A stretch of DNA of 64,000 bases, from positions 37,111-101,110 of the IMG/VR virus record IMGVR_UViG_3300046474_000370. One strand, 5' to 3'. A program made the position numbers and the translations under genes. The DNA is from a virus. This document shows positions 26,893 through 61,664 of this stretch, in pieces; the first letter of the stretch is position 1; the number at the start of each line of letters is the position of its first letter. The notes under the pieces were generated by a model, which searched no databases, was not told where the DNA came from, and saw nothing but the letters and a program-made list of their open reading frames with translations.

Positions 26893-28515
26893 ATGAGCCA
26901 GCTAACCTTGCCCGACGATGTGCGCGCGGCGCTGCATGACGCGCCATTCGGGGCGATCTGTGACCTGTGGGAGCTGATCGAGCGCCGCTATGGCGACGCC
27001 GGCCGCGCCTGGCTGGGGCGGCACGACCGCTATTACCTGCTGACCCGGCTGCTGCACCGGCTCGATGCGGTGCATCCGTGGCTGTACGCGCGCTGCCGCG
27101 AGGTCGAGGAGGCCCCGGACGGCTACCTCGACCTGTGGGCGCGGGAGCACTACAAATCGACGGTGATCACGTTCGCCGGCATCATCCAGACGCTGTTGCG
27201 GGACCCCGAGACCACGGTCGGCATCTTTTCCCATACCAAGCCGGTGGCGCGCAAGTTCCTCTTGCAGATCAAGCAGGAGCTGGAGGCGAACCGCGAGCTG
27301 CAGGCGCTCTACCCGGAGGTGCTGTACGCCGACCCGCGCAACGAAGCGCCCAAGTGGAGCGAGGAAAAGGGCATCACGGTGCGGCGCCGCAGCAACCCCA
27401 AGGAAGCTTCGGTCGAGGCGCATGGGCTGGTCGACGGCCAGCCGACCGGCGCCCACTTCTTGTTGCGCGTGTATGACGACGTGGTGACGCGCGAGAGCGT
27501 GAGCACACCCGAGCAGGTGGCCAAGACCACCTCGGCATGGGAGCTGTCGGACAACCTGGGCGCGCGTGGCGAGGACGGCCAGGCGCGCAGCTGGCATGTG
27601 GGAACCCGCTACAGCTTCGCCGACACCTACCAGGCCATCATGGACCGGGGCGCGCTCAAGGTGCGGCTGTACCCAGCGACCGAGAACGGGATGCCGGACG
27701 GGACCCCGGTGCTGCTGTCGCCCGCGGCGTGGGCCGACCGCAAGCTCAAGCAGGGGCCGGCCACGATCGCCTGCCAGATGCTCCAGAACCCCGCCGCCGG
27801 CAACGAGGCGATGTTCAAGAAGGAGTGGCTGAGCTTCATCGACATCCGGCCCGCCACCCTGAACGTGTACATCATGGTGGACCCGGCGCACAGCCGCAAG
27901 AAGGGCTCGGACAACACGGCGATGGCGGTGGTCGGGGTGGACGCCGGCGGCAATCGCTACCTGCTGGACGGCTACCGCCACAAGATGGGCTTACGGGAAC
28001 GCTGGGAGGCCCTGCGCGGGCTGCGCAAGGTGTGGATGGCCCAGCCGGGCGTGCAGATGGTGCAAGTTGGCTACGAACGCTATGGGATGCAGGCCGATCT
28101 GGAGTATTTCGAGGAACAGATGCAGCGCGACAAGGAGTCCTTCGAGATCATCGAGCTGAACTGGACCTCGGATGGCGCCCAGGCCAAGGACGACCGCGTG
28201 CAGCGCCTGCAGCCCGATTTCATGAGCCACCGTTTCTATCTGGCCGCCGTGGTGCAGGGCGAGACCGCGAACCAGCGCCGCATCCGCGAGCAGGGCCAGC
28301 CGTTCCGCATCTTCAAGCCGGTCATGCGGCGTGACCACGAGGGCAACATGTATTCGCTGAACAAGGGGTTCTTGGAAGAATTCCTGACCTACCCGTTCAG
28401 CGCCAAGAAGGACCTGATCGACGCCGTGAGCCGGCTGTACGACATGGAGCCGGTGCCACCGATCCTGATCGACGAGCGGACGCTGGAGCCCGAGACCTAT
28501 GCGGACGGGGTGTGA
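26893..28515 (+). CDS. terminase large subunit
   Basis: The 540-aa protein is the packaging ATPase-nuclease. The ATPase half has a deviant Walker A AREHYKST (residues 83-90) and Walker B LRVYDD (about 191-196). The nuclease half starts with VYIMVDPAHSRKKGSDNTAM (Asp330 as first metal ligand) and has a second acidic site toward the end (AKKDLIDAVSR, about residues 508-518). It is full length. It translocates DNA through the portal and cuts concatemers; the strategy (pac or cos) cannot be told from sequence. Confidence 0.93.
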   Translation: MSQLTLPDDVRAALHDAPFGAICDLWELIERRYGDAGRAWLGRHDRYYLLTRLLHRLDAVHPWLYARCREVEEAPDGYLDLWAREHYKSTVITFAGIIQTLLRDPETTVGIFSHTKPVARKFLLQIKQELEANRELQALYPEVLYADPRNEAPKWSEEKGITVRRRSNPKEASVEAHGLVDGQPTGAHFLLRVYDDVVTRESVSTPEQVAKTTSAWELSDNLGARGEDGQARSWHVGTRYSFADTYQAIMDRGALKVRLYPATENGMPDGTPVLLSPAAWADRKLKQGPATIACQMLQNPAAGNEAMFKKEWLSFIDIRPATLNVYIMVDPAHSRKKGSDNTAMAVVGVDAGGNRYLLDGYRHKMGLRERWEALRGLRKVWMAQPGVQMVQVGYERYGMQADLEYFEEQMQRDKESFEIIELNWTSDGAQAKDDRVQRLQPDFMSHRFYLAAVVQGETANQRRIREQGQPFRIFKPVMRRDHEGNMYSLNKGFLEEFLTYPFSAKKDLIDAVSRLYDMEPVPPILIDERTLEPETYADGV

Positions 28516-29525: not shown

Positions 29526-29556
29526 GAAAAAAAGCCCGACGCTTGCACGCCGGGCA
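29526..29556 (-). terminator. terminator of the 29.6-35.7 kb minus-strand operon
   Basis: On the minus strand a GCCCG/CGGGC stem is followed by TTTTTTT. It lies about 80 bp after the last minus gene and separates it from the convergent late genes. Confidence 0.8.
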
Positions 29557-29635: not shown

Positions 29636-29860
29636 TCATTTCGTGTGCGGGTCCGATGGTGCCCGCTTCGGCCCGTGGAACGCCAGCCGGCAGTGCGGGC
29701 AGACGTAGATCACGAGGTTATGGAACGGCTCCGCCTCGACCGCGTCGGGATGGCCCCACTGGTAGTTGTTCTTGTCGGCCATGTCCATCGGGCTGTCAGC
29801 GGTGCAGTAGCGACGCGGCAGGGCGCTGGGGACGTACACAAGGAACGGGGCGGCGCTCAT
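29636..29860 (-). CDS. small zinc-ribbon-like phage protein
   Basis: A 74-aa protein with CPHC (about residues 56-59) near the C-terminus and an upstream Cys (RRYCTADSPMDMADKNNYQWG). Last gene of the large minus-strand operon. Overlaps the upstream gene by 4 bp. Confidence 0.6.
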   Translation of the reverse strand: MSAAPFLVYVPSALPRRYCTADSPMDMADKNNYQWGHPDAVEAEPFHNLVIYVCPHCRLAFHGPKRAPSDPHTK

Positions 29861-30099
29861 GGCTGGCGGTCGCTGACGACGGTGATGTGCTTGCCCTTGT
29901 AGCTGGCCAGCTCGGGCAGGCGCGACCGAATCAGCAGGTCTTGGTACTCGCTGCGGGTCAGGAAGATCATGGTGCAGTCGGGATCGAGCGCGGCGACGGC
30001 GCGGTTGGCCGCCTCGACGCCATCGAGTTCGCGCCGGAATAGGTGGTCGAGCTGGCGGCGCGCCTCTTTCTCGTCCTTTTTCTGTCTGCGGCTGGTCAT
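29857..30099 (-). CDS. small basic phage protein
   Basis: An 80-aa protein with a strongly charged N-terminus (MTSRRQKKDEKEARRQLDHL) and a short alpha/beta remainder. 4-bp overlaps with both neighbours. Unknown. Confidence 0.6.
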   Translation of the reverse strand: MTSRRQKKDEKEARRQLDHLFRRELDGVEAANRAVAALDPDCTMIFLTRSEYQDLLIRSRLPELASYKGKHITVVSDRQP

Positions 30100-30455
30100 T
30101 TGGTGGTTCTCCCCGGTTCAATACAGTTGTCCATAATCCAGTGTACGCACAGCAGGTAGCCTTCCTCGCCGAATACCGCGCGCACCGCGCGGCGCCAGTT
30201 GGCCCGGTCCATGCGGTTGCGCACGAGCTTGAGTTCGTCGCCGATCCGCGTGAGCTGGGCCTGATGCGCCCCGATGCGCACGCCGGCCTCGTCGGCTTCG
30301 CGGGTATAGCACCCGTTGCGAAAGGCGTTCAGCGCCGCGATCTCGTCGATCAGCGCGTGGCGCCGCATCACCAGTTCGATTTCGGCCTCGCTATCGGGCA
30401 TACCGTGCAGGCGCTCCCAGAATAGCGCGTCGTCGGCGGCGGCGCGGTGGCTCAT
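30096..30455 (-). CDS. hypothetical helical phage protein
   Basis: The 119-aa product is almost wholly helical, with a coiled-coil-like centre (HQAQLTRIGDELKLVRNRMD) and a Cys-containing tail. 4-bp overlaps on both sides. Function unknown. Confidence 0.6.
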   Translation of the reverse strand: MSHRAAADDALFWERLHGMPDSEAEIELVMRRHALIDEIAALNAFRNGCYTREADEAGVRIGAHQAQLTRIGDELKLVRNRMDRANWRRAVRAVFGEEGYLLCVHWIMDNCIEPGRTTK

Positions 30456-30643
30456 GGCGCCCCCTGCTGATCGCGCATGTGCGAGACGACCAGCGGAATG
30501 CGCCGGCGCATGGCGGCCCGGTAACGCAGCACGGCGCGGGCGCGGGCGCTACGGACCCACTTGAGCAGCGCGGGCTTGCCGCGCCGCACCGCCTTGCCTG
30601 CGGCGTGCCCGCAATAACGGCCCTCGCGCTGATTACGACTCAT
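30452..30643 (-). CDS. SRNxREG-family small basic protein, copy 1
   Basis: A 63-aa, very basic protein starting MSRNQREGRYCGHAAGKAVR. It is one of four proteins in this operon with the SRN(Q/A)REG(R/W/Y)YxG opening. The remainder is Arg-rich and differs from the other copies, suggesting divergence after duplication. Long alternative starts upstream would read through the preceding gene and are rejected. Confidence 0.65.
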   Translation of the reverse strand: MSRNQREGRYCGHAAGKAVRRGKPALLKWVRSARARAVLRYRAAMRRRIPLVVSHMRDQQGAP

Positions 30644-30854
30644 CCGGGCCCACCACGTATCGCCACCGGAGCGCCTTGGCGATGTAGCGCACGCGCGGGC
30701 GGCGCACCGGCAGCGGCTCGCCCGCGCGGCGTGATGCCTCGGCCCAGGCCACACAGTTATCAGGCTGGCCGATGGCGAACAGTGGCCGTGCGCTGCGCAG
30801 GTGGCGGCCCTGACAGGTGCCGATGTAGCGCCCTTCGCGCTGGTTGCGACTCAT
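30633..30854 (-). CDS. SRNxREG-family small basic protein, copy 2
   Basis: A 73-aa protein: MSRNQREGRYIGTCQGRHLR, then VAWAEASRRAGEPLPVRRPR (about residues 36-55) and a basic end. The second part is nearly the same as in the copy at 31266-31496. Its start overlaps the next upstream gene by 4 bp and its end overlaps copy 1 by 11 bp. Confidence 0.7.
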   Translation of the reverse strand: MSRNQREGRYIGTCQGRHLRSARPLFAIGQPDNCVAWAEASRRAGEPLPVRRPRVRYIAKALRWRYVVGPDES

Positions 30855-31078
30855 GGCCCGCTCCCGTGGTCCTCGGGGTGGCAGTAGTCGCTTGGCGCCA
30901 CCTGTTCCTCGGGCAGCACCCACGACGGCGCGCCGCAGAACGCACAGCGAAACGGCGCCACCCCGGTATAGAGCAGCGCAACAGTCAGCGCGGCGACCTG
31001 CTGCTGGACCGCCGCGGGCTGGCACAGCGGCCAGCAGCAGCAGCGCGCGCCGTCCACGCCGCAGCCACACGCGCTCAT
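30851..31078 (-). CDS. Cys-rich small protein, possible zinc ribbon
   Basis: A 75-aa protein with many Cys: CGCGVDGARCCCWPLC at the start (about residues 4-19), CAFC (about 50-53) and a final YCHPEDH (about 67-73). It likely binds one or two zinc ions. It separates SRNxREG copies 2 and 3. No known family. Confidence 0.6.
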   Translation of the reverse strand: MSACGCGVDGARCCCWPLCQPAAVQQQVAALTVALLYTGVAPFRCAFCGAPSWVLPEEQVAPSDYCHPEDHGSGP

Positions 31079-31266
31079 GGTGCGCTCCCGATCAGCCGCA
31101 ACGACTGCCGCGCGGCGGCGCGCCGCAGCCGGTCGTACTCGCGCAATGTGAGGAACATGCCGTTGCCGTAGGGTTGGCGCCGATGGCGGCGCGGCGCGTC
31201 CGGGTTGGTGCCCCAACGGAACTGGCCCGCATACCAGCCCTCGCGTGCGTTGCGGCTCACGGTCAT
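31075..31266 (-). CDS. SRNxREG-family small basic protein, copy 3
   Basis: A 63-aa protein: MTVSRNAREGWYAGQFRWGT then a basic region and an Arg-rich C-terminal helix (LREYDRLRRAAARQSLRLIG). It shares the SRNAREG start with copy 4 but not the AEASRRAGEP segment. Confidence 0.7.
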   Translation of the reverse strand: MTVSRNAREGWYAGQFRWGTNPDAPRRHRRQPYGNGMFLTLREYDRLRRAAARQSLRLIGSAP

Positions 31267-31496
31267 CAGTACCCCATGTCCAATGCCTGCGCCTGATCGG
31301 CCAGCGCCTGCATGGCCGCCCGCACTGCCTTGCTCAGGTAGCGCGGGCGGCGCACCGGCAGCGGCTCGCCCGCGCGACGCGACGCCTCGGCCCAGGCCAC
31401 GCCGTAGTCGTACCGGATGCGCAGCCAGCGCGGGCCGCGCGTGTGCCTGCCCTGAAAGCGGCCGAGGTAGTAGCCCTCGCGCGCGTTACGGCTCAT
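31266..31496 (-). CDS. SRNxREG-family small basic protein, copy 4
   Basis: A 76-aa protein: MSRNAREGYYLGRFQGRHTR, then GVAWAEASRRAGEPLPVRRPR (given here as parts VAWAEASRRAG and EPLPVRRPR) and a C-terminal helix. The start lies in a 4-bp overlap with the winged-helix gene. Its DNA shares a 60-bp near-identical stretch with copy 2. Confidence 0.7.
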   Translation of the reverse strand: MSRNAREGYYLGRFQGRHTRGPRWLRIRYDYGVAWAEASRRAGEPLPVRRPRYLSKAVRAAMQALADQAQALDMGY

Positions 31497-31723
31497 GGCC
31501 ACACCCGCACGAACGCAGCGCCGCGCACGTAGGTGCGGGCCGACGCGTCGTACACCGCGTTGCCGGGCGCCAGCGCCAGGTAGTTTTGGATGTCGCGCGA
31601 CGCCTGCGGCATCGACAGCCCGAAGTAATCGACAATCGCGCTGCGGTTGACGGTGCCGTAGTGGGCCAGCAGGAATTCGATGAATTGAAAGCGTACCAGC
31701 ACGTTTGGCTTGATGTCGTTCAT
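31493..31723 (-). CDS. stand-alone winged-helix protein resembling the CapW/BrxR N-terminus
   Basis: The 76-aa protein reads RFQFIEFLLAHYGTVNRSAI, DYFGLSMPQASRDIQNYLAL, APGNAVYDASARTYV. The pattern (NR...FG(I/L)S.PQAS.D...Y..LAPGN..YD.....YV) is that of the N-terminal winged helix plus start of WYL-domain defence regulators of the CapW/BrxR kind. The WYL and C-terminal parts are absent; the gene is complete in itself with its own start and overlaps. It likely binds DNA. The family link is from memory of the motif. Confidence 0.75.
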   Translation of the reverse strand: MNDIKPNVLVRFQFIEFLLAHYGTVNRSAIVDYFGLSMPQASRDIQNYLALAPGNAVYDASARTYVRGAAFVRVWP

Positions 31724-32175
31724 GGTGCCTCCAACAGGCCAACCATGCGTTCCAGCAGGGCCTCGATCTGGCCGAACGCGAACAGCTCGTCAGGACCGCT
31801 GCGGAACGCCTTGTCGCCGTCCAGGTACAGGCCATAGCCACGGTCTGGATGCACCTGCACGCACAGCGGCCCCACGTCGAGCCAGGTCGATTGCAGGTCG
31901 TGTTCGGCCGCGTCCACCAGCACCCGGTGCCCCAGCGTGCGCAGCGCGTGGATCAGGGGCTGGGCCTTGCCCAAGGTCGCGCTTTGGCTCATGCCGCCTC
32001 CAGTGGTCAGCGGCCAGTGGTACGCGCAGGCCGGACGCGCCGGGTCGCCGCCGTTCCAGAGGAAGGACGCGTACGCCTGCCAGGCCGGGTTCGGCACCGT
32101 GCCGCTGGCCGCGTGGCGATAGCAGCCCGTGCGCAGCGGGCAAGTGGTGCTGTTGCACATGGTGATGTCAGGCAC
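31720..32175 (-). CDS. Cys-containing phage protein, possibly two-part
   Basis: The 151-aa product starts with MCNSTTCPLRTGCYRHAAS (Cys cluster, about residues 6-24) and WQAYASFLWNG, a pattern of small phage zinc proteins, and continues without a stop into a second part (about 62-151; MSQSATLGKAQPLIHAL...). Usually such a Cys protein stands alone, so this may be a fusion, or translation may also start at the internal ATG (31992). Confidence 0.6.
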   Translation of the reverse strand: MPDITMCNSTTCPLRTGCYRHAASGTVPNPAWQAYASFLWNGGDPARPACAYHWPLTTGGGMSQSATLGKAQPLIHALRTLGHRVLVDAAEHDLQSTWLDVGPLCVQVHPDRGYGLYLDGDKAFRSGPDELFAFGQIEALLERMVGLLEAP

Positions 32176-32395
32176 GGCCCACCTCGGCCCGGTGCACGAT
32201 GTCGTCGCGGCCGCACCAGATCAGGATCGTGCCGCGCACGCTGTCGCTGTTGGGGCCGGTCGGTTGCCCGTCCAGTTCCAGAAAGCGGTAGGGCACGCCG
32301 TCGCCGATGATCGCGTTGACGTTGTCGTGATGCTGGCCCACCAGCGCGGCGGCGATGGCGGCAAGCTTGCTTTTCCTGGTTGGTCGGTTGCCCAT
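32168..32395 (-). CDS. hypothetical small phage protein
   Basis: A 75-aa protein with a basic N-terminus (MGNRPTRKSKLAAIAAALVG) and a beta-rich end. Overlaps the downstream gene by 8 bp. Function unknown. Confidence 0.6.
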   Translation of the reverse strand: MGNRPTRKSKLAAIAAALVGQHHDNVNAIIGDGVPYRFLELDGQPTGPNSDSVRGTILIWCGRDDIVHRAEVGRA

Positions 32396-32412
32396 GTTGG
32401 TGGATCTTCTTT

Positions 32413-32631
32413 CTATGCTGGGGAGTCGTTGTGTGGCGCGACCTCGGTCCAGGCCGCCATGTGCAGCACCTTGCCCTGCGCATCCTTGCAGTACGAGTAC
32501 ATGCCGTCGATGTGGCCGAACCAGTAGACGGTGTCGGCGCCGGCCTCGACCGCGGGCGCGCCGGGCGGGATGTGCACGGTGTCGTCAAGCACCGTGAACA
32601 GGCTGTTGCGGGGGAGTTCGTAGAGTTTCAT
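32413..32631 (-). CDS. small conserved phage protein
   Basis: A 72-aa beta-rich protein: KLYELPRNSLFTVLDD, then FGHIDGMYSYCKDAQGKVLHMAAWTEV. The opening LPRxS.F and the DGMYSYC...H.AAWTEV part recur in small phage proteins of no known role. Overlaps the upstream gene by 4 bp. Confidence 0.65.
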   Translation of the reverse strand: MKLYELPRNSLFTVLDDTVHIPPGAPAVEAGADTVYWFGHIDGMYSYCKDAQGKVLHMAAWTEVAPHNDSPA

Positions 32632-33113
32632 GGGGCAGGGTTCCAGTCGTGGCACTTGGCGCAGTAGCGCTGTGCGATGTCGTTGTGGTTGTACGAAGTC
32701 AGGCCGCAGCGCGGGCAGGTGATCGACGGATAGCGATGCGTCACCGCGAGAAATGCCGGCGGCAGCACGACGTTCGCGGGGCTGTGCGCGAAGAACGGCG
32801 CGATCTGTTCCGGGCGATAGCCCGCCAGCCCGCAGCCGATCGGGGTGACGCGGAACACCAGCTCGGGGTGGGCCTGGGCGAAGTCGAGAAAGCGCAGCAC
32901 GTAGTAGTGGACCCACTCCAGCGGCAGAGTGCGCAGGCGCGCGTCCTTGGTCGGGATCGCGTAGCTGCGCCCCTGCAAGCCCTCGCCCTGGCCGTAGATC
33001 GCGCCGTGCCAGTGCTGGGCCGCGAGCGCGGCGCCCTTGCCGTGGCGGCCGGCCAGGTTGGACCCGAACACGAAGATGCGGTTGCTCAGGGGCGGGAACG
33101 GGACGTCGTTCAT
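32628..33113 (-). CDS. macro-like phage protein (A1S_2505-type) with C-terminal zinc ribbon
   Basis: The 161-aa protein has FVFGSNLAGRHGKGAAL (about residues 14-30), GRSYAIPTKDARLRTLPL and VTPIGCGLAGYRPEQIAPFF (about 92-111). This is the pattern of the phage non-structural family called A1S_2505, whose glycine-rich loops resemble nucleotide/ADP-ribose-binding macro domains. A zinc ribbon (CPRCG...CAKCH) is appended at the C-terminus. The start at 33113 fits a 4-bp overlap with the upstream gene. Role unknown. Confidence 0.75.
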   Translation of the reverse strand: MNDVPFPPLSNRIFVFGSNLAGRHGKGAALAAQHWHGAIYGQGEGLQGRSYAIPTKDARLRTLPLEWVHYYVLRFLDFAQAHPELVFRVTPIGCGLAGYRPEQIAPFFAHSPANVVLPPAFLAVTHRYPSITCPRCGLTSYNHNDIAQRYCAKCHDWNPAP

Positions 33114-33289
33114 CGCCGGCGCTCCTTCACCTGGTGATACATTGTGTACACCTGCCCCCGGTACAGCCAGAGGCGGACGCAAATGCGCTTGGCGCGGTCG
33201 AAGTCGTAGCCGGCAGCGCAGAACGCACTGGCGCGCCCGTTCGGTGCGTTGGCGCGCCGCGCCAGCCATGGATTGGCGGGCACAATCAT
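33110..33289 (-). CDS. small basic phage protein
   Basis: A 59-aa protein (MIVPANPWLARRANAPNGRA then CAAGYDFDRAKRICVRLWLY). Its stop and the next ATG form ATGA, and its start overlaps the upstream gene by 4 bp, so it is clearly part of the operon. Two Cys and many Arg; unknown function. Confidence 0.6.
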   Translation of the reverse strand: MIVPANPWLARRANAPNGRASAFCAAGYDFDRAKRICVRLWLYRGQVYTMYHQVKERRR

Positions 33290-33426
33290 GCATCCCGCCA
33301 GATCACCACCAGCCCGATCAGGACCAGCAGCACGCCGTGGCCGGTGTGCGGGGTGACCCCGACGACAAAGGCGCCGAAAGCGCAGACGGCGACGCTGGCG
33401 ATGGCACGGGCGGTGGGGGCGGTCAT
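33286..33426 (-). CDS. small hydrophobic membrane protein
   Basis: A 46-aa protein, nearly all hydrophobic, with two possible membrane segments (AIASVAVCAFGAFVVGV and GVLLVLIGLVVIW). 4-bp overlaps on both sides. Could be an accessory membrane peptide; no family. Confidence 0.55.
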   Translation of the reverse strand: MTAPTARAIASVAVCAFGAFVVGVTPHTGHGVLLVLIGLVVIWRDA

Positions 33427-33671
33427 CGCTTGGCCACCTGCTCCAGCCAGTGCGCCGCCGCCAGCCAGGCGTCGAACAGGTGCCAGTCGGTCTCGAGCAC
33501 GGACTTCAGCCAGGCATCGAACGCCGGGCGGCTGGGGGCCAGCACGCCGGGCGTGGCGCCGCGCGCAGCCAACGACGCCGACCAGGTCATCCAGCCGGTC
33601 GTCACCGGACCGCTGCGCGGCTGTGCCAGCCAAGCCTCGAATAGTGCGCGTTCGCTGTTGTTGTTGGCCAT
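33423..33671 (-). CDS. hypothetical phage protein
   Basis: An 82-aa Trp-rich protein with repeated (F/L)xAWL motifs: LFEAWLAQ, FDAWLKSV and FDAWLAAA, i.e. three copies of a short helix. Unknown function. Confidence 0.6.
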   Translation of the reverse strand: MANNNSERALFEAWLAQPRSGPVTTGWMTWSASLAARGATPGVLAPSRPAFDAWLKSVLETDWHLFDAWLAAAHWLEQVAKR

Positions 33672-33675
33672 AGTG

Positions 33676-33978
33676 TTACCAGCTCCCGTAGTCGGTCAGG
33701 TCGATGGTCGCCTCCAGCGGCGTGCCCTGGCAGAACGTGGCCCGCACCACGACGCCCAGCCCGGTCGGGGTGAACGCGTAGGTCAAGCCGCCGCCAATCG
33801 CGCCCAGGTACGGCTGGGCCTTGCCGTCGCGCACGGTGACGTGGGGGGCCAGTTCGGGGTCGCGCAACTGCGCCGCCGCCAGCGCCGTGGTGTGCTGGTC
33901 CAGCCAGGCGTCCAGCTTGACCGACTGGTCGTAGTCGAGGCCGAACATCACGGTCATCCGCCGCCGGATTTCGCTCAT
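33676..33978 (-). CDS. hypothetical phage protein
   Basis: A 100-aa protein with a helical first half and a beta-rich second half (TYAFTPTGLGVVVRATFCQG). It overlaps the upstream gene by 4 bp and lies 4 bp from the next. Unknown. Confidence 0.6.
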   Translation of the reverse strand: MSEIRRRMTVMFGLDYDQSVKLDAWLDQHTTALAAAQLRDPELAPHVTVRDGKAQPYLGAIGGGLTYAFTPTGLGVVVRATFCQGTPLEATIDLTDYGSW

Positions 33979-34562
33979 GGGGTCTCCTGCCGCGCACTGG
34001 CCGGAATGCCGGAATGGGCCACCAGGGCGTCGATGATGCGCGTAATGGCGTCGAACGCGGCTTCGGCTTCCGGGCCGGACGCGTAGTGCAGGTGGATCGT
34101 CGCGCCCAGCGCGCCCGGATCGGTGGCCAGCGTGCCGCTTTCGTAGCCGGTGGCGATGGCGGCACGCTGCGCGTCCGTCAGCAGCGGCGGTGCCAGCCAA
34201 GCGGCGATCACCTGGTCGAGCAGCTTGTCCTGATCAACCACCTGGCCTTGTCCGGCGGCCCAGCGGAACGCCGACAACAGATCATGCACGGACAGCAGGA
34301 AGCGCGTGTCCAGCGGATCGGGCGCTTCGTGCATCTGCGCGTAATGGTTGCCGATGAAGGCGATGGCCTCGGCCGCCGTCTGCGGATAGGTCATGCCCGC
34401 AGGGGGCCGCTTCACCAGCGACCATGTGCATCGGGTACAGCGGACTGCCGCGTCGTCCTCGACAACATCCGACTTGCAGCTCGGACAGAAGTCGCCACAG
34501 CGGCAAGGGCGCAGCTCGCCGCAGGCGCAAAAACCGTGGTGGCTGACGGCATGGGGATTCAC
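33975..34562 (-). CDS. zinc-ribbon phage protein with helical C-terminus
   Basis: The 195-aa protein begins with three metal-ligand pairs (CACGELRPCRCGDFCPSCKS, then CTRC at about residues 42-45), enough for two zinc sites. A helical part with repeated Ala/Asp follows. An internal ATG at 34393 would remove the zinc region; the longer form is preferred because its ATG overlaps the upstream stop by 4 bp. Confidence 0.6.
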   Translation of the reverse strand: MNPHAVSHHGFCACGELRPCRCGDFCPSCKSDVVEDDAAVRCTRCTWSLVKRPPAGMTYPQTAAEAIAFIGNHYAQMHEAPDPLDTRFLLSVHDLLSAFRWAAGQGQVVDQDKLLDQVIAAWLAPPLLTDAQRAAIATGYESGTLATDPGALGATIHLHYASGPEAEAAFDAITRIIDALVAHSGIPASARQETP

Positions 34563-35200
34563 AGCAAGCCCTCCTTGCGCAGCGTGACCACCAAGTCCAC
34601 GGCGTAGATCGACGCCAGGTGCGCCACGTCGGGGTTGTCGAAATAGCGCGCCGCGATGGCGTCGGCGTGCAGCCCGATGGCGTCGATCAGCGCATCGGAG
34701 GCGCGCTTGGCCGCGCGCTGGCGGGCCACATCAGATGCACCGGCGCCGATCTCGCCCTCGAACAGTGGTGTGACGGCTTCTAGAGCCAGCATCCTTGTGC
34801 TCCACTCTTTCGAGTAGCCGGCGTGACTGGCCACGGCATCGAGCAGCTTTTGCGGATGGGCGCGCGCCGCCGCCTCGGCCACGGCCAGCAGCGCCTCGGT
34901 CGCCGACTCGCTAGGCAAATCGTCTTGCAGTGGATCGTGCGCGGGGTCCAGCGCGGGGGCCGTGCGCAAGTTGACCGGCACCGGCAGGCCGAGCCGGTAA
35001 TGGATCAGAAGGGCCTTGGCGCGGTCGATCATGGCGCTGGCCATCGCCACATTGTCGCGCTCCAGCACTTCCTGCGCGTCCGACAGCAGGCTCAGCACAA
35101 CCATGCCGGGACCGGCCAGGCGCGCGATGGGGTCGCGCTCGCAGTGGGCGATCAGGGCGGCCAGGGCGGGATCGGGGGGATATTCGGTGGGATCGGTCAT
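34559..35200 (-). CDS. hypothetical helical phage protein
   Basis: The 213-aa product is acidic and helical with an Ala-rich middle. No motif is recognised. One bp separates its start from the next upstream gene's end, keeping it in the operon. Confidence 0.6.
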   Translation of the reverse strand: MTDPTEYPPDPALAALIAHCERDPIARLAGPGMVVLSLLSDAQEVLERDNVAMASAMIDRAKALLIHYRLGLPVPVNLRTAPALDPAHDPLQDDLPSESATEALLAVAEAAARAHPQKLLDAVASHAGYSKEWSTRMLALEAVTPLFEGEIGAGASDVARQRAAKRASDALIDAIGLHADAIAARYFDNPDVAHLASIYAVDLVVTLRKEGLL

Positions 35201-35201
35201 G

Positions 35202-35444
35202 TCAGTGGCACTCCGGGCCGTGGCCTTGCAGGGCCAGGTAGTTGCGCATGGCAGCGGTCAGCACCGCCTCGTCGTTGTTAAAGCGGGCGCGCAGCTTGGC
35301 CAGCATGTTGGCGCGCGTGAGCCGGTTGAATTGCATCACCGCGCTGCCCACGGCGGTCAGCTCGAACAGGTCGGCGGCATCGTCGAACGTGAGCCGCTGG
35401 CCGCCGCGCAGCATGGCCTCGATCTCGTCAAGACGGGCGCTCAT
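35202..35444 (-). CDS. hypothetical small phage protein
   Basis: An 80-aa helical protein (SARLDEIEAMLRGGQRLTFD, FNRLTRANMLAKLRARF). 4-bp overlap with the upstream gene. Unknown. Confidence 0.6.
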   Translation of the reverse strand: MSARLDEIEAMLRGGQRLTFDDAADLFELTAVGSAVMQFNRLTRANMLAKLRARFNNDEAVLTAAMRNYLALQGHGPECH

Positions 35445-35671
35445 TTGAGAATCCAGACGGCGCGCCCGACGAACGCCATTTCGGCCCACTTGGCACGGTA
35501 GTGGGCCTGTCCGCCCGGCTGGCCGTGTTCGCCCAGCGCCTGCACATAGCCTTGCGCGCCCCACGGCTTCGGTTGGGTGACGGTCATCATGCAGCCGGCG
35601 AACATCGGATTGCCGACGGACGGGGCGAGCTGCACCACGTCGCCCGGTTCCAATGGGTCTTGTTCACTCAT
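35441..35671 (-). CDS. conserved small phage protein with KOW-like beta fold
   Basis: A 76-aa beta-rich protein: LEPGDVVQLAPSVGNPMFAG then MMTVTQPKPWGAQGYVQALG and a Trp-containing end. The PGDVVQL...GCMMTV pattern recurs in phage accessory operons. It is the first gene of the 6-kb minus operon; its promoter should lie in 35672-35827, where the best candidate -10 on the minus strand is TATCAT at 35722-35717 without a clear -35. Confidence 0.65.
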   Translation of the reverse strand: MSEQDPLEPGDVVQLAPSVGNPMFAGCMMTVTQPKPWGAQGYVQALGEHGQPGGQAHYRAKWAEMAFVGRAVWILK

Positions 35672-36209: not shown

Positions 36210-36566
36210 ATGAGCCAACTGCTGACCGGCCTCGATGACAGCGCGGTGTCCACCGGCGCCAATGACATGCTGCTGGCCAAGGAGATCGCCGACGCCCTGA
36301 ACAGCCACTATCCGGGCCACCTGTGGGCGGTCAACGTGGACGGCCCGAACGGGCTGGCCAACATCCGCGACCTGATGCTGTCGGGCCAGATGGGCTATGT
36401 GCTCAAGCTGGGCAACATGTTCAGCGCCTCCGATTTCCGCCGCGATGTGATCCGCGCCGGCGGCGAGATCCTGGAACGCTTCCGCATGGCGCGCGGGCGC
36501 TTCGATGAGGGCCAGTACGGCGGCCTGCAGACCAACTTTGCCGGCGACTTCGTCTTCGAGCGATGA
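36210..36566 (+). CDS. hypothetical phage protein before the portal gene
   Basis: The 118-aa protein (MLLAKEIADALNSHYPGHLW, VNVDGPNGLANIRDLMLSGQ) is a mixed alpha/beta small protein conserved next to portal genes in related phages as far as I recall. It overlaps the portal start by 4 bp. Confidence 0.65.
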   Translation: MSQLLTGLDDSAVSTGANDMLLAKEIADALNSHYPGHLWAVNVDGPNGLANIRDLMLSGQMGYVLKLGNMFSASDFRRDVIRAGGEILERFRMARGRFDEGQYGGLQTNFAGDFVFER

Positions 36567-39214
36567 GCGAGCCGGTGCAAGCGACCCAAGTGCCCTGGGG
36601 CGGTCCCGATACCGACTGGCTCGGGCTGGCGCGCGACGCCTACCAGGCCTCGTCCAGCTATTTCGACGCCAACGTGCGCAGCCAGATCGAGGCCGACTTG
36701 CGCCAGTCGCAGGGGCAGCACCCGATCGGCTCGAAGTACCTGGCCGACAAGACCCGCTCGCGCCTGTTCCGGCCCAAGACGCGCGCCATGATCCGCAAGA
36801 ACGAGGCGGCCTGCGCCGAGGCGTTCTTTACCACCAACGATGTGGTCGCGATCAAGGCCGAGAACGACAACGACCCGCAGCAGCAGGCCAGCGCGGCGGT
36901 GATCCGCGAGCTGTTGCAGTACCGCCTGACCAAGACCATCCCGTGGTATCTGACGCTGGTCGGCGCGTTCCAGGACGCCCAGACGGTCGGCATAGTGGCG
37001 TCCTACCAGTATTGGGAATACAACCAGGTCAAGGGGATCGACAAGCCGTGCGTGCGCCTGCTGCCGATCGAGAACCTGCGCTTCGACCCGGCCGCCTCAT
37101 GGACCGACCCGGTGGGCACCTCGCCGTATCTGATCGAGCTGATCCCGATGTACGTGGGCCAGGTCAAGGCGCGCATGCGCAACCCGGACCCGAAAACCGG
37201 GGCGCCGCGCTGGCACGAGCTGCCCGACTCGGTGATCCTGACCGCCACCACCACCTACGGCGACACCATCCGCATGCAGCGCGAAGGCCAGCGCACCGAT
37301 TCCAAGTACCAGCAGCAGGCCAACAGCAATTTCAACGTGGTATGGGTCCACAAGGTCATCCTTGAGGTCGACGAGGTCGATTACGTCTACTACACGCTCG
37401 GCTGCGACCACATGCTGAGCGACCCGGTGCCGCTCAGGGAGGTTTATTTCCACGGCCGCCGCCCGTACGTGGTGGGCACCTGCGTGGTCGAGACCCACAA
37501 GATTTACCCGGCCTCGCTGCCGCACCTGACCCACGATGTGCAGGCCGAGATCAACGAGGTGGCCAACCAGCGCATCGACAACGTCAAGCTGGCCCTGAAC
37601 AAGCGCTATTTTGCGCGCCGCAACAAGCAGGTCGACCTGCGCTCGGTGACCCGCAACGTGCCCGGCTCGGTGACCCTGATGCAGGACGTGGACGACGTCA
37701 AGGTGGTCGAGTTCAACGATGTGACCGGCTCCAGCTACAAGGAGCAGGAGGTGCTGAACCTCGACTTCGACGACCTGGCCGGCACCTTCTCGGGCAGTTC
37801 GGTGCAGTCGAACCGCAAGCTGAACGAGACCGTGGGCGGGATGAACCTGCTCAATACGACCGCCAACCAGGTCGCCAACTACCAGCTGCGCACCTTCGTC
37901 GAGACCTGGGTCGAGCCGGTGCTGCGCCAGCTGGTGCTGCTGGAGCAGAACTACGAGACCGACGAGGTGGTGCTGGCCCTGTGCGGGCAGGCCGCCAACC
38001 TGCAGCGCTTTGGCTTCGACGCCGTCACCGACGAGATGCTGATGGCGGAAACCACGCTGTCGGTGAACGTCGGCATGGGCCAGACCAACCCGGCCGAGCA
38101 GGGCAAGCAGTTCATCAACGGCATGACCGCGCTCAAGGAACTGCTGGGCGACGGCACGCTGGTCAAGATGGGCGTCGAGGTGGGCGAGGTGATCAAGGAG
38201 ATCTTCGGCAAGCTCGGCTACAAGGACGGCAGCCGCTTCTTCTCGCAGGACGCGAAGGACGATCCGGCGCGCCAGCAGATGCAGGCCACGATCGACCAGT
38301 TGCAGCAGGCGCTGCAGGCCAAGATGCCGCCGGAACTGCTGGCCGCCACCGTGCGCAAGCTCGATGCCGAGACCAAGTCGACCCAGGCCGAGGCGGTCAA
38401 GCGCGGCGTCGAGTCGTCGTTCAGCGCGATGCAGGGCGCCGAGGTGATCGCCGCGGTGCCGGGGGTGGCGCCGATCGCCGACGAGCTGATGCGCTCGGCC
38501 GGCTACACCGAACCGCAGCCGGCTGGCATCGACCCGAACTTCCCGCAGCCGGGCGGCGCGGCGCCGGGGCTGGGCATCGAGCCGGTGAAGAACCGCCGCA
38601 CCGGGATCGGCTTCCTGCCGGGCGACGCCAGCAGCACGGTGTACCCGCCCAATCCGACGCCGCCGCCGACGCCGGGCATCGGGGTGCGCCAGGGCATCCA
38701 GACCCAGCGCCCGGACAGCATCGCGCAGGCGGCCTTCGCTGACGGCGGGCTGGTGGGCGACGACGACGACGACGACGACAGCGCCCAGGCGGGCGCCGGC
38801 GCGCCGGGCTACGCGGCGGGCGCGAATGGCTACGGCGGGAACCGCAGCCCGGTGCATGACCTGATGGCGCAGAGCATGTTCAAGCTGGCCAACGGCGGCT
38901 TGATCCAGGGACCGGGCAGCGGCACCAGCGATTCGATCGCGGCCGCCGCCGGCGGGTTGCCGCTGGCCGTTTCCAACGGCGAGTACCGGATTCCGGCGGC
39001 GGTGGTGGCCGCGCTCGGGCACGACTTCTTCGAGGCGCTGGTGGCGCAGTTCCATGCGCCGGTCAGCACCGACGGCGCACCGCCGCCAGCGCAGCCGGGC
39101 CAGCCGCCGCTGCCGCTCGAGAACGGCGACTTCATCGTGCCGGCCGATGTGGTGCAGGCGCTTGGGCATGACTTCTTTGACAAGTTAATCGAGAGCTACG
39201 GGGGGGCGGCATGA
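36563..39214 (+). CDS. portal protein with long C-terminal extension
   Basis: The 883-aa product has portal features: an N-terminal helical region (SQIEADLRQSQGQHPIGSKY, RPKTRAMIRKNEAACAEAFF), a beta-rich wing/crown part, and the helical stem-like stretch LSVNVGMGQTNPAEQGKQF with LNETVGGMN. It forms the dodecameric ring for DNA entry and tail attachment. The C-terminal about 250 residues are unusual: a Pro/Gly linker, seven consecutive Asp (about 734-740) and two copies of an NGxxxIPAxVVxALGHDFF motif (about 803-825 and 853-873). The type looks podovirus-like. Confidence 0.8.
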   Translation: MSEPVQATQVPWGGPDTDWLGLARDAYQASSSYFDANVRSQIEADLRQSQGQHPIGSKYLADKTRSRLFRPKTRAMIRKNEAACAEAFFTTNDVVAIKAENDNDPQQQASAAVIRELLQYRLTKTIPWYLTLVGAFQDAQTVGIVASYQYWEYNQVKGIDKPCVRLLPIENLRFDPAASWTDPVGTSPYLIELIPMYVGQVKARMRNPDPKTGAPRWHELPDSVILTATTTYGDTIRMQREGQRTDSKYQQQANSNFNVVWVHKVILEVDEVDYVYYTLGCDHMLSDPVPLREVYFHGRRPYVVGTCVVETHKIYPASLPHLTHDVQAEINEVANQRIDNVKLALNKRYFARRNKQVDLRSVTRNVPGSVTLMQDVDDVKVVEFNDVTGSSYKEQEVLNLDFDDLAGTFSGSSVQSNRKLNETVGGMNLLNTTANQVANYQLRTFVETWVEPVLRQLVLLEQNYETDEVVLALCGQAANLQRFGFDAVTDEMLMAETTLSVNVGMGQTNPAEQGKQFINGMTALKELLGDGTLVKMGVEVGEVIKEIFGKLGYKDGSRFFSQDAKDDPARQQMQATIDQLQQALQAKMPPELLAATVRKLDAETKSTQAEAVKRGVESSFSAMQGAEVIAAVPGVAPIADELMRSAGYTEPQPAGIDPNFPQPGGAAPGLGIEPVKNRRTGIGFLPGDASSTVYPPNPTPPPTPGIGVRQGIQTQRPDSIAQAAFADGGLVGDDDDDDDSAQAGAGAPGYAAGANGYGGNRSPVHDLMAQSMFKLANGGLIQGPGSGTSDSIAAAAGGLPLAVSNGEYRIPAAVVAALGHDFFEALVAQFHAPVSTDGAPPPAQPGQPPLPLENGDFIVPADVVQALGHDFFDKLIESYGGAA

Positions 39215-43617: not shown

Positions 43618-44913
43618 ATGGCGCCCTATACCCTGCACCTGGGCGACTGCCTGGAGGTGATGCGCGCCATGCCGGACAACAGCATCGACGCGATCGTGAC
43701 CGACCCGCCGTACCACCTGACCACCGGCAAGAAGGGTGGCAGCGGGCCGGCCAGCTACAACCCGGATTCGCCGGCCGGGTGCGCGAAGATCGGCACCGGC
43801 TTCATGGGCATGACCTGGGATGGCGGCGACATCGCGTTCCGGGTCGAGCTGTGGCGCGAGGCGCTGCGCGTGCTGAAACCGGGCGGGCATGTGCTGGCAT
43901 TCTCAGGCAGCCGCACCTACCACCGGATGGCCTGCGCAATCGAGGACGCCGGGTTCGAGATCCGCGACCAGATCCTGTGGGTGTATTTGACAGGGTTCCC
44001 GAAGTCGCGCGACATCGCCAAGTACGACATGGACGGCGCGGATGCCGCCGCGTGGGCGGGCTGGGGAACCGGGCTGAAACCCACGCACGAGCCGATCTGC
44101 ATGGCGCGCAAGCCGCTGGCCAAGGGCATGACGGTGGCCGCCAACGTCCTGGCGCACGGTACGGGGGCGCTGAACATCGACGCCTGCCGGGTTGAAGTGC
44201 TCGACGACGATTACGCGCGCAATTGCTCGGGTGACCGCGGCCACGGGGGCACCCGCAGCGCCGCACAAGCGGGGGCAACGAACTTACATACCGGGGGCGG
44301 CAGCGCGGCGGCGGGGCGCTGGCCCGCCAACCTGGTCCACGACGGCAGCGACGATGTGGTGGCCCTGTTCCCGGCGCAGGCCGGCGCCGCCGCGCCAGTG
44401 CATACCCGGCGCGCCGACAAGTTCCGAAACAGCTACGGCAGCTTCGCCGGCAACATCGACGAGGCCGGCAGCACGTTTCGCGGCGACGCCGGCAGCGCGG
44501 CGCGCTTCTTCTACTGCGCCAAGGCCAGCCGCCGCGACCGCAACGAGGGTTGCGAGCAGCTGGCCGCCAAGCCGCTGCACTGGTCGAGCGGCGACCAGAA
44601 CCCCGGCAGCTTCCAGTCGGCCGGCACCGACAAGAGCAGCCAGAACTTCCACCCGACGGTCAAGCCGACCGCCCTGATGCAATGGCTGGTGCGGCTGGTG
44701 ACGCCGCCCGGCGGCGTGGTGCTTGACCTGTTCACGGGCTCGGGCAGCACCGGCAAGGCCTGCATGCGCGAGCGGTTGCGCTTCATCGGGGCCGAACTGA
44801 ACCCGGATTACCTGGCGATCGCCGAGGTGCGCATCGGGCACGCACTGGCCGCCCGCGAGGCGGCAGCGCGCGCGGCGGCGCCGGCGTCGCCGCAGATTGA
44901 CCTTTTCGCCTGA
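43618..44913 (+). CDS. DNA methyltransferase (beta-type amino-MTase) with clamp-binding tail
   Basis: The 431-aa protein is a SAM-dependent N4-cytosine/N6-adenine methyltransferase. The catalytic DPPY (residues 29-32) comes before the SAM-binding motif DLFTGSGSTGKACM (about 363-376), as in the beta group. A target-recognition region lies between (about 190-320). The last residues read QIDLFA, a match to the bacterial sliding-clamp motif. No restriction enzyme is nearby, so it is an orphan, likely protecting phage DNA. Most probable targets cannot be read from sequence. Confidence 0.9.
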   Translation: MAPYTLHLGDCLEVMRAMPDNSIDAIVTDPPYHLTTGKKGGSGPASYNPDSPAGCAKIGTGFMGMTWDGGDIAFRVELWREALRVLKPGGHVLAFSGSRTYHRMACAIEDAGFEIRDQILWVYLTGFPKSRDIAKYDMDGADAAAWAGWGTGLKPTHEPICMARKPLAKGMTVAANVLAHGTGALNIDACRVEVLDDDYARNCSGDRGHGGTRSAAQAGATNLHTGGGSAAAGRWPANLVHDGSDDVVALFPAQAGAAAPVHTRRADKFRNSYGSFAGNIDEAGSTFRGDAGSAARFFYCAKASRRDRNEGCEQLAAKPLHWSSGDQNPGSFQSAGTDKSSQNFHPTVKPTALMQWLVRLVTPPGGVVLDLFTGSGSTGKACMRERLRFIGAELNPDYLAIAEVRIGHALAAREAAARAAAPASPQIDLFA

Positions 44914-45172: not shown

Positions 45173-46138
45173 ATGGCGATCATTCATGTGGTGTCGGTTT
45201 CCGGCGGCAAGGACTCGGCCGCCACGCTGTTGCTCGCGATCGAGCGCTTCGGCGCGCATCGGGTGCGCGGCATTTTCTGCGACACCGGCAACGAGCACGA
45301 GGCGGTCTATGAATACCTCGACTACCTGGAACGCGCCACCGGCGTGACGATCGCGCGCCTGAAGGCCGATTTCTCCGCCGAGATCGCGCGCAAGCGCATG
45401 TTCATCGCGCGCGATGTGCGCACCAGGCGCAAGGACGGCCGCAAGCTGCGCTGGACCAACAAGGCCAAGCGGCGCGCGCTGGCGGTGCTGCAGCCGACCG
45501 GCAACCCGTATCTGGACATGTGCCTGTGGAAGGGGCGCTTCCCGTCACGCATGGCGCAGTTCTGCACCGAAAAGCTCAAGCGCGACCTGGCAGTCGAGTA
45601 CCAGCTCGAGCTGATGGACCAGGGCCACAAGGTGATCAGCTGGCAAGGGGTGCGCCGCGACGAATCGCAAAAGCGCCGCGAAGCGCTCAAGTTCGAGGCG
45701 GTTGGCGGCGGCCTGTATATCTACCGGCCGCTGGTCGAGTGGAGCGCGCAGGATGTGTTCGCGTACTGCGCACGCAAGGGGATCGCACCGAATCCGCTCT
45801 ACAAGCAGGGCATGGGGCGGGTCGGCTGCATGCCGTGCATTAACGCGAGCAAGGGCGAAGTGCGCGAAATCGCGGCGCGCTTTCCCGAGCACATCGAGCG
45901 CATCCACGCGTGGGAAAAGCTGGTGGCGGCCGCCTCCAAGCGCGGGTTCAGCACCTTCATGCACCTCAGTACCACGCGCGACTACCGCCACCTGAACGAC
46001 GGCCAGATTTTCGAGGCCGCGAATATTTACAAGATCGTCGAGTGGTCGAAGACCGCGCGCGGCGGCAAGCAGCTGGACCTGCTGGCCGACGTCGGCGACA
46101 TCCACGCCTGTTCCTCGGCCTACGGCCTGTGTGAGTAG
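45173..46138 (+). CDS. phage PAPS-reductase-like PP-loop ATPase
   Basis: The 321-aa protein has the PP-loop SVSGGKDSA (residues 8-16) and a partial PAPS reductase fold (FCDTGNEHEAVYEYLDYLE; ISWQGVRRDESQKR at about 158-171; PLVEWSAQDVFAYC). Cys pairs FCTEKLKRD and GCMPC (about 220-224) could bind Fe-S or zinc. Such proteins (DndC/CysH-like) are frequent in phages; sulfur transfer to DNA or tRNA has been proposed but not shown. It follows a terminator, with its own ribosome site (ACAGGACAGC). Confidence 0.88.
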   Translation: MAIIHVVSVSGGKDSAATLLLAIERFGAHRVRGIFCDTGNEHEAVYEYLDYLERATGVTIARLKADFSAEIARKRMFIARDVRTRRKDGRKLRWTNKAKRRALAVLQPTGNPYLDMCLWKGRFPSRMAQFCTEKLKRDLAVEYQLELMDQGHKVISWQGVRRDESQKRREALKFEAVGGGLYIYRPLVEWSAQDVFAYCARKGIAPNPLYKQGMGRVGCMPCINASKGEVREIAARFPEHIERIHAWEKLVAAASKRGFSTFMHLSTTRDYRHLNDGQIFEAANIYKIVEWSKTARGGKQLDLLADVGDIHACSSAYGLCE

Positions 46139-59336: not shown

Positions 59337-61664
59337 ATGTCTGAATGCTCTGCCACCACGATCGTCACCGACCTGGCCGACCTGGCCCCGGTCTCGGTGA
59401 CACCGTTGCCGCCGCTGCCGGCGCCGCCGCTGCTGGCGCCGCTCGGGCCGTTCGAGGGCGCGCCGCCGATGCCGGAGCTGGCGCCGCTCGATCCGCTGGA
59501 GCCGCCCGAGCAATTCGAGCTGGTCCCGCTGGCGACGCTGCCGTATATGGATTCGGCCGCGTCCGGCGTGGTGCGCGAGGTGCTGGCGCAGACCGGCGAG
59601 CTGGCCGCCAGCGCGCAGGCGCAGGCGATCGCCAACATCGAGGCGCTGGCCGCCTACCAGCCGACGTTTGCCCCGCTGGAGCCACCGCAGGTGCCGACCG
59701 CGCCCGCGGTCACGCTGCCGGCGCTGGGCAGCGCGCCGACCGCGGGCGACCTGACGCCGCAGTTCGCCAGCGCCCCGGTCGCGCCGCAGCTGGGCGCCCC
59801 GCAGGTGCTGGAGCTGGCCGACCCGCCCGTGTTCGATGTGACCGACGTGGCGATCATGGATATCCCGCTGCCGGACCCGTTCGATGCGCTGATGCCGGAC
59901 GAGCCGCAGTTCGCGCCGATCGGGGTGGCGGTCGAGCCGAACGTGGAACTGCCGCCCGTGCCGAGCCTGCTGGCACTGGCGCTGCCCGAACCGCCGCAGG
60001 TGGCGCTGCCGCTGTTTGACGCCGAACTGGGCAGCGGCCCGGCGGTGCCGGAGGCGCGCTTCGTGTATGCCGAGGTGGAATACGCCAGCAGCTTGCTGGG
60101 GGCGCTGCAAGCCCGCTTGAGCCCGCTCGTGGCGGACATGGCGGCGACCGGCATCGACCAGTCGGTCGAGCAGGCGATCTGGGACCGCGCGGCCGACCGC
60201 GAGGCCTTGCTGACCCACCGCGCCACCGGCGAGGCGCTGCGCCTGATGACCGCGCGCGGCTTTCGGATGCCGGAGGCGGCGCTGGTGCGCATCGTCCAGC
60301 AGGCGCTGCAGGGCGGGTTGCACCGCACCGCCGGGCTGCGCCGCGACATCGCGGTCGAGCAGGCGCGCCTGCGCCAGCAGAATTTCCGCTTTGCGCTGGA
60401 AACCGCGACCACGCTGGAGAGCCGCCTGCTGGACCAGGCCAACGCGGCGCAGGCACGCGCGCTGGCCGCCGCCAAGGCCAGTGTCCAGACCGAGATCGCG
60501 ATCTTCAATGCACGGGTCCAGCTGTTCAGCGCCGATGTGCAGGCGTTCGCGGTCAAGGCCAGCGGGTTCCGCGCGCGGCTGGAGGCAGCGCTCGGGGTGA
60601 TCGCCGTCTACCGTTCCCAGCTGGAAGCGCAGCGCACGGTCGGCGAGATCAACGGGCAGAAGGTGGCCATCTACAAGGCCCAGATCGAGGCGGTCCATTT
60701 CATCGTCGACACCTACCGCGCGCGGGTGGACGCGGCCAAGGCGCAGATCGAGGCCAACCAGGCGTTCGTGGATGCCTACCGCGGCCGGATCGACGCCTTC
60801 AAGGCTCAAATCGAGGCCAAGAGCAGCGAATACGACAGCTACGCCGCGCGCGTCAAGGGCCAGGTCGCCAAGGCCGAGCTGTTCGAGCAGCAGGTGCGCA
60901 GCTACCAGTCGCGGGTGGAGGCGTTCGCGGCCCAGGTCAAGGCCAATGTCAGCGTGCAGACGCTGCGCTTCAAGCAGGCCAGCGAATTCCCGCTCGAATT
61001 GTACAAGACGCAGATGCAAGCCTACCAGATCGGGACCGCGGCCAGCGTCGACCAGCTGCGCGCGGTGGCAGGGGTGTTCAGCGCGCGGGTCAAGGCGTTC
61101 GGCGCCGAGGAAGGCGCCAAGGCCGGGCACCTGGACGCGCAGGCCAGGATCGCCGCCGCCAACGCCCAGGCGGCGCTGGCGCAAGCCGAGGTGCTGCTCG
61201 ACACCGGGCGCGCCAACCTGCAAGTGGTGCAGGGTGCGGTCGAGACCGCGCAGGGCAACCTGCGCAGCGCCGGCCAGCTGGCCGGCCAGCTGGCGGCGGC
61301 CGCCATCGCGGCGCAGAGCGTGCATGCGTCGATCGCCGAAAGCGGCTCGCAGTCGGTCGCCAATTCGGCCTCGCGTTCGAGCAGCGACAGCAAAGCGACG
61401 GCCACCAGCAGCAGCACCGGCAGCTCGGCCTCGACCAACGTGGCGCACAGCGCCACCAGCGGCACCTCGACCAGCAATTCGCTCAGCAACACCGAAGGGC
61501 GCAGCTATAACCGCGGGGTCAGCAGCAGCTATTCGGTGCGCATGTCGAGCAACAATTCGACCGCCGTCTCGGCGCATAACTCCTACCTCGGCAGCGTGTC
61601 GATCGGCAGCAGCGCCAGCATGGTGCGCAGCTGCACCGATTCGACCGTGATCTCCGATTCCTGA
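59337..61664 (+). CDS. long coiled-coil virion protein with Ser-rich tail, copy A
   Basis: The 775-aa protein has a Pro-rich N-terminus (about residues 1-240, PPLP/APP repeats), a large helical region (about 240-655) and a Ser/Asn/Thr-rich tail (about 655-775; NSLSNTEGRSYNRG). The helical part has near-regular 21-residue repeats (YxxxIEAxKAQIEA type), so a long coiled coil. It shares its whole layout with the next gene. A virion internal (ejection) or fibre role is possible; the sequence alone does not decide. Confidence 0.7.
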   Translation: MSECSATTIVTDLADLAPVSVTPLPPLPAPPLLAPLGPFEGAPPMPELAPLDPLEPPEQFELVPLATLPYMDSAASGVVREVLAQTGELAASAQAQAIANIEALAAYQPTFAPLEPPQVPTAPAVTLPALGSAPTAGDLTPQFASAPVAPQLGAPQVLELADPPVFDVTDVAIMDIPLPDPFDALMPDEPQFAPIGVAVEPNVELPPVPSLLALALPEPPQVALPLFDAELGSGPAVPEARFVYAEVEYASSLLGALQARLSPLVADMAATGIDQSVEQAIWDRAADREALLTHRATGEALRLMTARGFRMPEAALVRIVQQALQGGLHRTAGLRRDIAVEQARLRQQNFRFALETATTLESRLLDQANAAQARALAAAKASVQTEIAIFNARVQLFSADVQAFAVKASGFRARLEAALGVIAVYRSQLEAQRTVGEINGQKVAIYKAQIEAVHFIVDTYRARVDAAKAQIEANQAFVDAYRGRIDAFKAQIEAKSSEYDSYAARVKGQVAKAELFEQQVRSYQSRVEAFAAQVKANVSVQTLRFKQASEFPLELYKTQMQAYQIGTAASVDQLRAVAGVFSARVKAFGAEEGAKAGHLDAQARIAAANAQAALAQAEVLLDTGRANLQVVQGAVETAQGNLRSAGQLAGQLAAAAIAAQSVHASIAESGSQSVANSASRSSSDSKATATSSSTGSSASTNVAHSATSGTSTSNSLSNTEGRSYNRGVSSSYSVRMSSNNSTAVSAHNSYLGSVSIGSSASMVRSCTDSTVISDS

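Follow-up and report, generated by a model that had tools for sequence, protein, structure and literature searches.

A stretch of 64,000 nucleotides of viral DNA was analysed (referred to as the window), which comprises positions 37111-101110 of the 101-kb viral record IMGVR_UViG_3300046474_000370. A gene on its minus strand (31493-31723) codes for a protein of 76 amino acids which, judged by sequence comparison and predicted fold, consists of the winged helix of CapW/BrxR regulators and is part of a separate, widespread phage family of such winged helices rather than a one-off truncation. CapW/BrxR couples bacterial immunity to single-stranded DNA (ssDNA), and the phage family has kept the DNA-binding domain without the sensor. 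This raises the question of whether phages act on promoters to silence the immune operons of their hosts or have domesticated the domain for circuits of their own.

The phage record encodes terminase, portal, replicative helicase, RecT and RecE-type genes. The winged-helix gene is about the twelfth of some 19 genes of a putative operon, 4 kb from its leader, and this operon is flanked by the terminase gene (26893-28515, plus strand) and the portal gene (36563-39214, plus strand). The features are as follows:

31493..31723, minus strand: stand-alone CapW/BrxR-type winged-helix gene, 76 aa, ATG start (from ORF, homology and predicted fold)
31728..31732, minus strand: GGAGG ribosome-binding site of the winged-helix gene (from sequence)
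31643..31645, minus strand: codon 27, Arg, equivalent to CapW Arg32 (from alignment and the CapW mutants of PMC9122588)
31571..31612, minus strand: recognition helix, codons 38-51, MPQASRDIQNYLAL (from AlphaFold helix and alignment)
31523..31558, minus strand: two-stranded wing, codons 56-67 (from AlphaFold model)
31720..32175, minus strand: upstream gene, 151 aa, possibly two fused genes, overlapping the winged-helix gene by 4 bp
31266..31496, minus strand: downstream gene, 76 aa, MSRNAREGYYLG..., overlapping the winged-helix gene by 4 bp
29636..35671, minus strand: putative operon of about 19 small, mostly overlapping genes including the winged-helix gene (from gene spacing)
29534..29555, minus strand: terminator-like hairpin with T run at the operon end

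An earlier interpretation of this DNA, made from its letters alone (the sequence-only reading), had described a 76-aa protein with an NR...YD-type motif which ends directly after the winged helix and lacks a WYL domain. Both the ORF and the motif are present, and the ORF indeed stops at residue 76, hence also excluding the WCX domain and the linker helices of the domain-swapped dimer. No match to the Pfam WYL model is obtained with the 76-aa protein, while full-length controls do match, and no WYL-like sequence is found 3' of the gene, where unrelated small ORFs follow.

The search of all PDB chains with phmmer yielded five matches up to E=10, each of them a CapW or BrxR (3e-12, 5e-8, 1e-7, 4e-6 and 4e-6), with CapW from P. 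aeruginosa as the best one. The same five lead, at 2.6e-10 or better, if a profile calculated from nine phage relatives is compared with the PDB; the remaining profile matches are antibody light chains with E values of 0.6 or worse. The AlphaFold2 model of the 76-aa protein is a confident winged helix (pLDDT 94.6) composed of helices 6-22, 27-34 and 38-51 as well as strands 56-59 and 64-67; loci from viral contigs and genomes served as input for this prediction. When this model was submitted to Foldseek, the 15 top-ranking PDB chains were all CapW/BrxR (E 1e-6 to 2e-4) with rmsd values of 0.7 Å to 1.3 Å and one exception at 2.2 Å, the next family in the ranking being IclR with an E value of 1e-2. 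Thus, the specific relation to CapW/BrxR which the sequence-only reading had claimed, proposing a profile comparison and a structure prediction as checks, is borne out by phmmer, profile and superposition (at about 1 Å) alike. Membership of a general DeoR/HTH family is rejected since the phmmer and significant profile matches in the PDB are confined to CapW/BrxR, which also rank ahead in Foldseek. Searches of Pfam, NCBIfam and PHROGs with the 76-aa protein gave no significant match. This silence is uninformative because even the full-length relatives match the Pfam WYL model only, and no Pfam model covers their winged helix. Small "hypothetical" proteins which are missed by these three collections can now be given a fold and a probable activity.

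In scans of viral contigs, many phages turned out to encode stand-alone relatives (about 73-90 aa), and full-length matches were limited to three (L011, L021, L025). The family includes gp088 of Stenotrophomonas phage Sonora as a named member, and one phage carries two divergent copies. The gene occurs almost only in phages, including the isolated phages Sonora, Arash and fHe-Yen9-02. The phage homologues (45 non-redundant ones, each about 75 aa long) group into a single clade separate from the full-length proteins. In the tree which comprises them together with 36 full-length proteins, a single change separates the two groups (support 100/99); as this tree is unrooted and based on the 61 winged-helix columns alone, the direction, domain loss versus domain gain, is not readable from it. 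The tree of a smaller set shows the split too. Accordingly, "phage-borne" stands from the earlier description of a phage-borne truncated copy, while its truncation as a recent capture of a host gene is rejected, the phage clade lying apart from all sampled full-length proteins. The C-terminus is constant: among 42 phage proteins, 37 stop exactly five residues past the conserved Phe71, one stops at four and four at 9-15 residues. For five of six phage pairs tested, dN/dS amounts to about 0.1-0.3; the remaining pair (L005/L010) is too similar to judge. Since homologues of the same length and with the same end occur in many phages under mostly purifying selection, the gene is conserved, and a chance ORF, a frameshift or a decayed copy is rejected. 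Clustering of the neighbours revealed no conserved partner gene, the winged-helix gene alone being conserved across the 45 loci. In the open-access literature we found no paper describing the stand-alone phage version.

In bacteria, nearly all homologues are full length, as observed in a sample of about 700 genomes. Taking into account the best 14-18 candidates per genome, 49 of 52 matches in 300 genomes of one order and 84 of 87 matches in 399 genomes of the phylum (Pseudomonadota sample) belong to open frames of 269 aa or more. The best-scoring match of the 300-genome sample, under the same selection of candidates, is a stand-alone copy amid phage-like genes.

Mutation of Arg32, Ser42, Gln45 or Ser47 in S. 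maltophilia CapW abolishes DNA binding (PMC9122588). All four DNA-contact residues have their equivalents in the window copy, namely R27, S37, Q40 and S42, of which Q40 and S42 are situated in the recognition helix and S37 just before it. Position 27 is Arg in 44 of 45 phage and in all 36 full-length proteins; D44, like R27, is retained by the phage proteins, and positions 37, 40 and 42 are variable in phage copies other than that of the window. Three further positions elsewhere in the fold, at which the full-length proteins hardly vary, are exchanged across the phage clade. At position 18, all 36 full-length proteins have Arg and 44 of 45 phage proteins have Leu; at position 22, Glu or Asp prevails in the former versus Tyr in 44 of 45 of the latter, and position 29, Asp in 33 of 36 full-length proteins, is mostly Ala in the phage proteins. 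The natural reading of these sequence differences is that the phage proteins would have lost contacts with the absent linker, WYL and WCX parts and retained the DNA face; replacement of R18, E/D22 and D29 is what one would expect in that case. Position 38, the specificity position, is Met in the window protein versus Val or Ile in most full-length proteins. The mean entropy of the recognition helix amounts to 2.03 bits in phage versus 1.14 bits in full-length proteins, compared to 1.44 versus 1.25 bits for positions outside of this helix (descriptive values, uncorrected for phylogeny).

The only recurring signal upstream of the full-length genes is AGATGGGTATA together with overlapping words; palindromes in these regions are mostly not common to several genes. 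With at most one mismatch, five of seven matches of AGATGGGTATA lie within 130 bp upstream of a regulator gene, and the word recurs within 130 bp upstream of the regulator start at, for example, L047, L046, L031 and L057. We consider it a candidate half-site, deduced from sequence, for part of the CapW/BrxR family. In the phage it is not enriched, as the window contains two occurrences with at most two mismatches versus 2.06 expected. The difference at position 38 makes another operator likely, so that this negative result is a weak one. The inverted repeats which the sequence-only reading had proposed to look for at the operon did not emerge: the operon leader contains none above chance (149 of 200 shuffles were as good). 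A repeated AT-rich palindrome is likewise absent from the 101-kb record, in which only GC-rich matches typical of coding bias were found. Its suggestion that the protein regulates its own operon thus gains no backing from leader palindromes or from CapW-type half-sites in the phage genome. Nor does the gene have a Cro/CI-type placement at a divergent control region with operators, as it is located mid-operon.

Full-length CapW/BrxR represses until ssDNA binds it (PMC13373217); PDB entry 9c5g represents R. leguminosarum CapW with ssDNA. It is defence operons that the full-length proteins keep repressed until their WYL/WCX part engages ssDNA. The phage protein, which consists of the winged helix alone, would be a small DNA-binding protein, may be produced from the long operon of small accessory genes and would stay on its DNA site whether or not DNA damage or infection occurs, because the WYL/WCX part is missing. 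DNA binding, blindness to ssDNA and repression are in this respect inferred by us. As leading explanation, tentatively and at a probability we put just short of even, we propose that the protein regulates transcription constitutively, probably as a repressor, by way of a phage-specific operator, and that it targets phage promoters or those of co-resident elements. The diversity of the recognition helix, the two divergent copies in one phage and a clade which does not track host proteins suggest such targets, and the higher variability of the recognition helix in phages would suit an operator of its own for each phage. Against a phage operator speaks that none was found in leader or record and that the gene is not located beside its own promoter. 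Affinity for a palindrome could also be low because the dimer-holding linker helices and the WYL/WCX part are missing, unless dimerisation is achieved in another way.

We favour own or co-resident promoters over host CapW/BrxR operators as targets. The latter would make the protein an anti-defence super-repressor whose sensorless winged helix keeps CBASS, BREX or similar systems off after ssDNA has released host CapW during infection, which we regard as rather unlikely. The CapW DNA-contact residues of the window copy, the fact that just the ssDNA sensor is missing, the near restriction of the gene to phages, an accessory-gene context without conserved partners and a CapW-type half-site not above chance in the phage itself are consistent with it. 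Among the best 14-18 candidates per genome, full-length relatives are present in 64 of the 399 Pseudomonadota genomes (about 16%), and one relative adjoins a DISARM/HmaA-like helicase gene. Mobile elements provide a precedent with their AmrZ homologues, which repress CRISPR-Cas (Borges et al. 2020, as cited in PMC10013973). However, the phage proteins are not nested within the host proteins in the tree, the recognition helices differ among phages and from those of the hosts, and Met is found at position 38, the probable counterpart of the base-reading Arg38 in Acinetobacter BrxR. Moreover, in the one sampled genome with a stand-alone copy (G208) the scored candidates included no full-length relative, and a host operator could not be assigned to the phage protein. 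The anti-defence proposal of the sequence-only reading, binding of the same operators to keep host defence repressed, is hence only partly supported: retained contact residues and the absent WYL domain speak for it, Met38, the diversified recognition helix and the lack of a linked host operator against it, and repression of host defence is no more than a possibility. PHROGs assigned none of the neighbouring small phage genes to defence. Slightly more doubtful still is a widespread family of sensor-free phage super-repressors which silence host immune operons after ssDNA release of the host repressor. If true, phages would counter immunity at the level of transcription, with CBASS, BREX, DISARM and other CapW-controlled systems affected simultaneously.

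That the protein binds DNA in a role which is non-regulatory or mixed, such as partition, replication or DNA architecture, appears improbable to us. Such a role is suggested by a copy in IMGVR 3300046648_000324 (L082:8193-12300) which is flanked by a ParA-like gene and a small gene resembling those of ribbon-helix-helix proteins, by a ParB-like gene about 5 kb away in Yersinia phage fHe-Yen9-02 and by a possible ssDNA-annealing protein gene just upstream in L006/L010, some of these labels deriving from sequence reading and not from a family search. Such neighbours, however, are not common to the phages, and the winged-helix gene alone is conserved across the 45 loci. Very improbable, finally, is that the phage protein poisons host full-length CapW/BrxR, be it by formation of mixed dimers or in another way. 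Both have the same winged-helix fold, and one domain could in principle compete for half-sites, but the published dimers are held together by linker, WYL and WCX (PMC9122588, PMC9122589), all of which are absent here.

Compared to CapW (7tb5, 7tb6, 9c5g), the phage winged helix shows 43% (P. aeruginosa) and 34% (S. maltophilia) identity over 70-73 columns and superimposes with an rmsd of 0.7 Å, with equivalents of Arg32, Ser42, Gln45 and Ser47 present. In contrast to CapW it lacks linker helices, WYL and WCX, so that neither ssDNA sensing is expected nor a known dimer interface available; R18, E/D22 and D29 are replaced and no defence operon adjoins the gene. The winged-helix fold of BrxR (7qfz, 7t8k, 7t8l) is matched with rmsd values of 0.8 Å to 1.3 Å. 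The same domains and residues set the phage protein apart from BrxR, as does the missing adjoining defence operon, and in addition Met probably takes the place of the base-reading Arg38 in Acinetobacter BrxR. Two longer phage relatives, gp136c of Salmonella phage Arash (109 aa) and gp285 of Yersinia phage fHe-Yen9-02, resemble the window protein in having a winged helix with weak similarity to CapW (E 0.011) and no room for WYL; they differ by an extra tail of about 35 residues which may, according to a weak alignment, represent the first CapW linker helix. Arash gp136c (L137:2980-3309) is annotated as "WYL domain-containing protein" in spite of consisting of winged helix and short tail, the name probably being a transfer error. 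The mobile-element AmrZ homologues, as far as described in the citing source, likewise are mobile-element homologues of a host DNA-binding immunity regulator. They belong, however, to an unrelated family, and their repression of CRISPR-Cas was experimentally tested while the phage protein is known from sequence and model.

We would like to add some minor observations. In IMGVR 3300046648_000324, possibly a phage-plasmid, a second winged-helix copy is present, followed by an XRE-like gene. In the window, the four small genes which follow the CapW-like gene (30452-31496, minus strand; individually 31266-31496, 31075-31266, 30633-30854 and 30452-30643) start with MSRN/TVSRN-x-REG-x-Y-x-G and resemble tandem paralogues; the three scanned gave no PHROG match. 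An ABC exporter of 705 aa with an N-terminal C39 peptidase domain (bacteriocin-exporter type; 1391-3508, plus strand) constitutes unusual phage cargo. Genes resembling those of a DNA methyltransferase (43618-44913) and a phosphoadenosine-phosphosulfate reductase (45173-46138) are found on the plus strand. Two adjacent long proteins of 775 and 727 aa (59337-61664 and 61675-63858, plus strand) resemble tandem paralogues and share similar Ser/Asn-rich C-terminal repeats.
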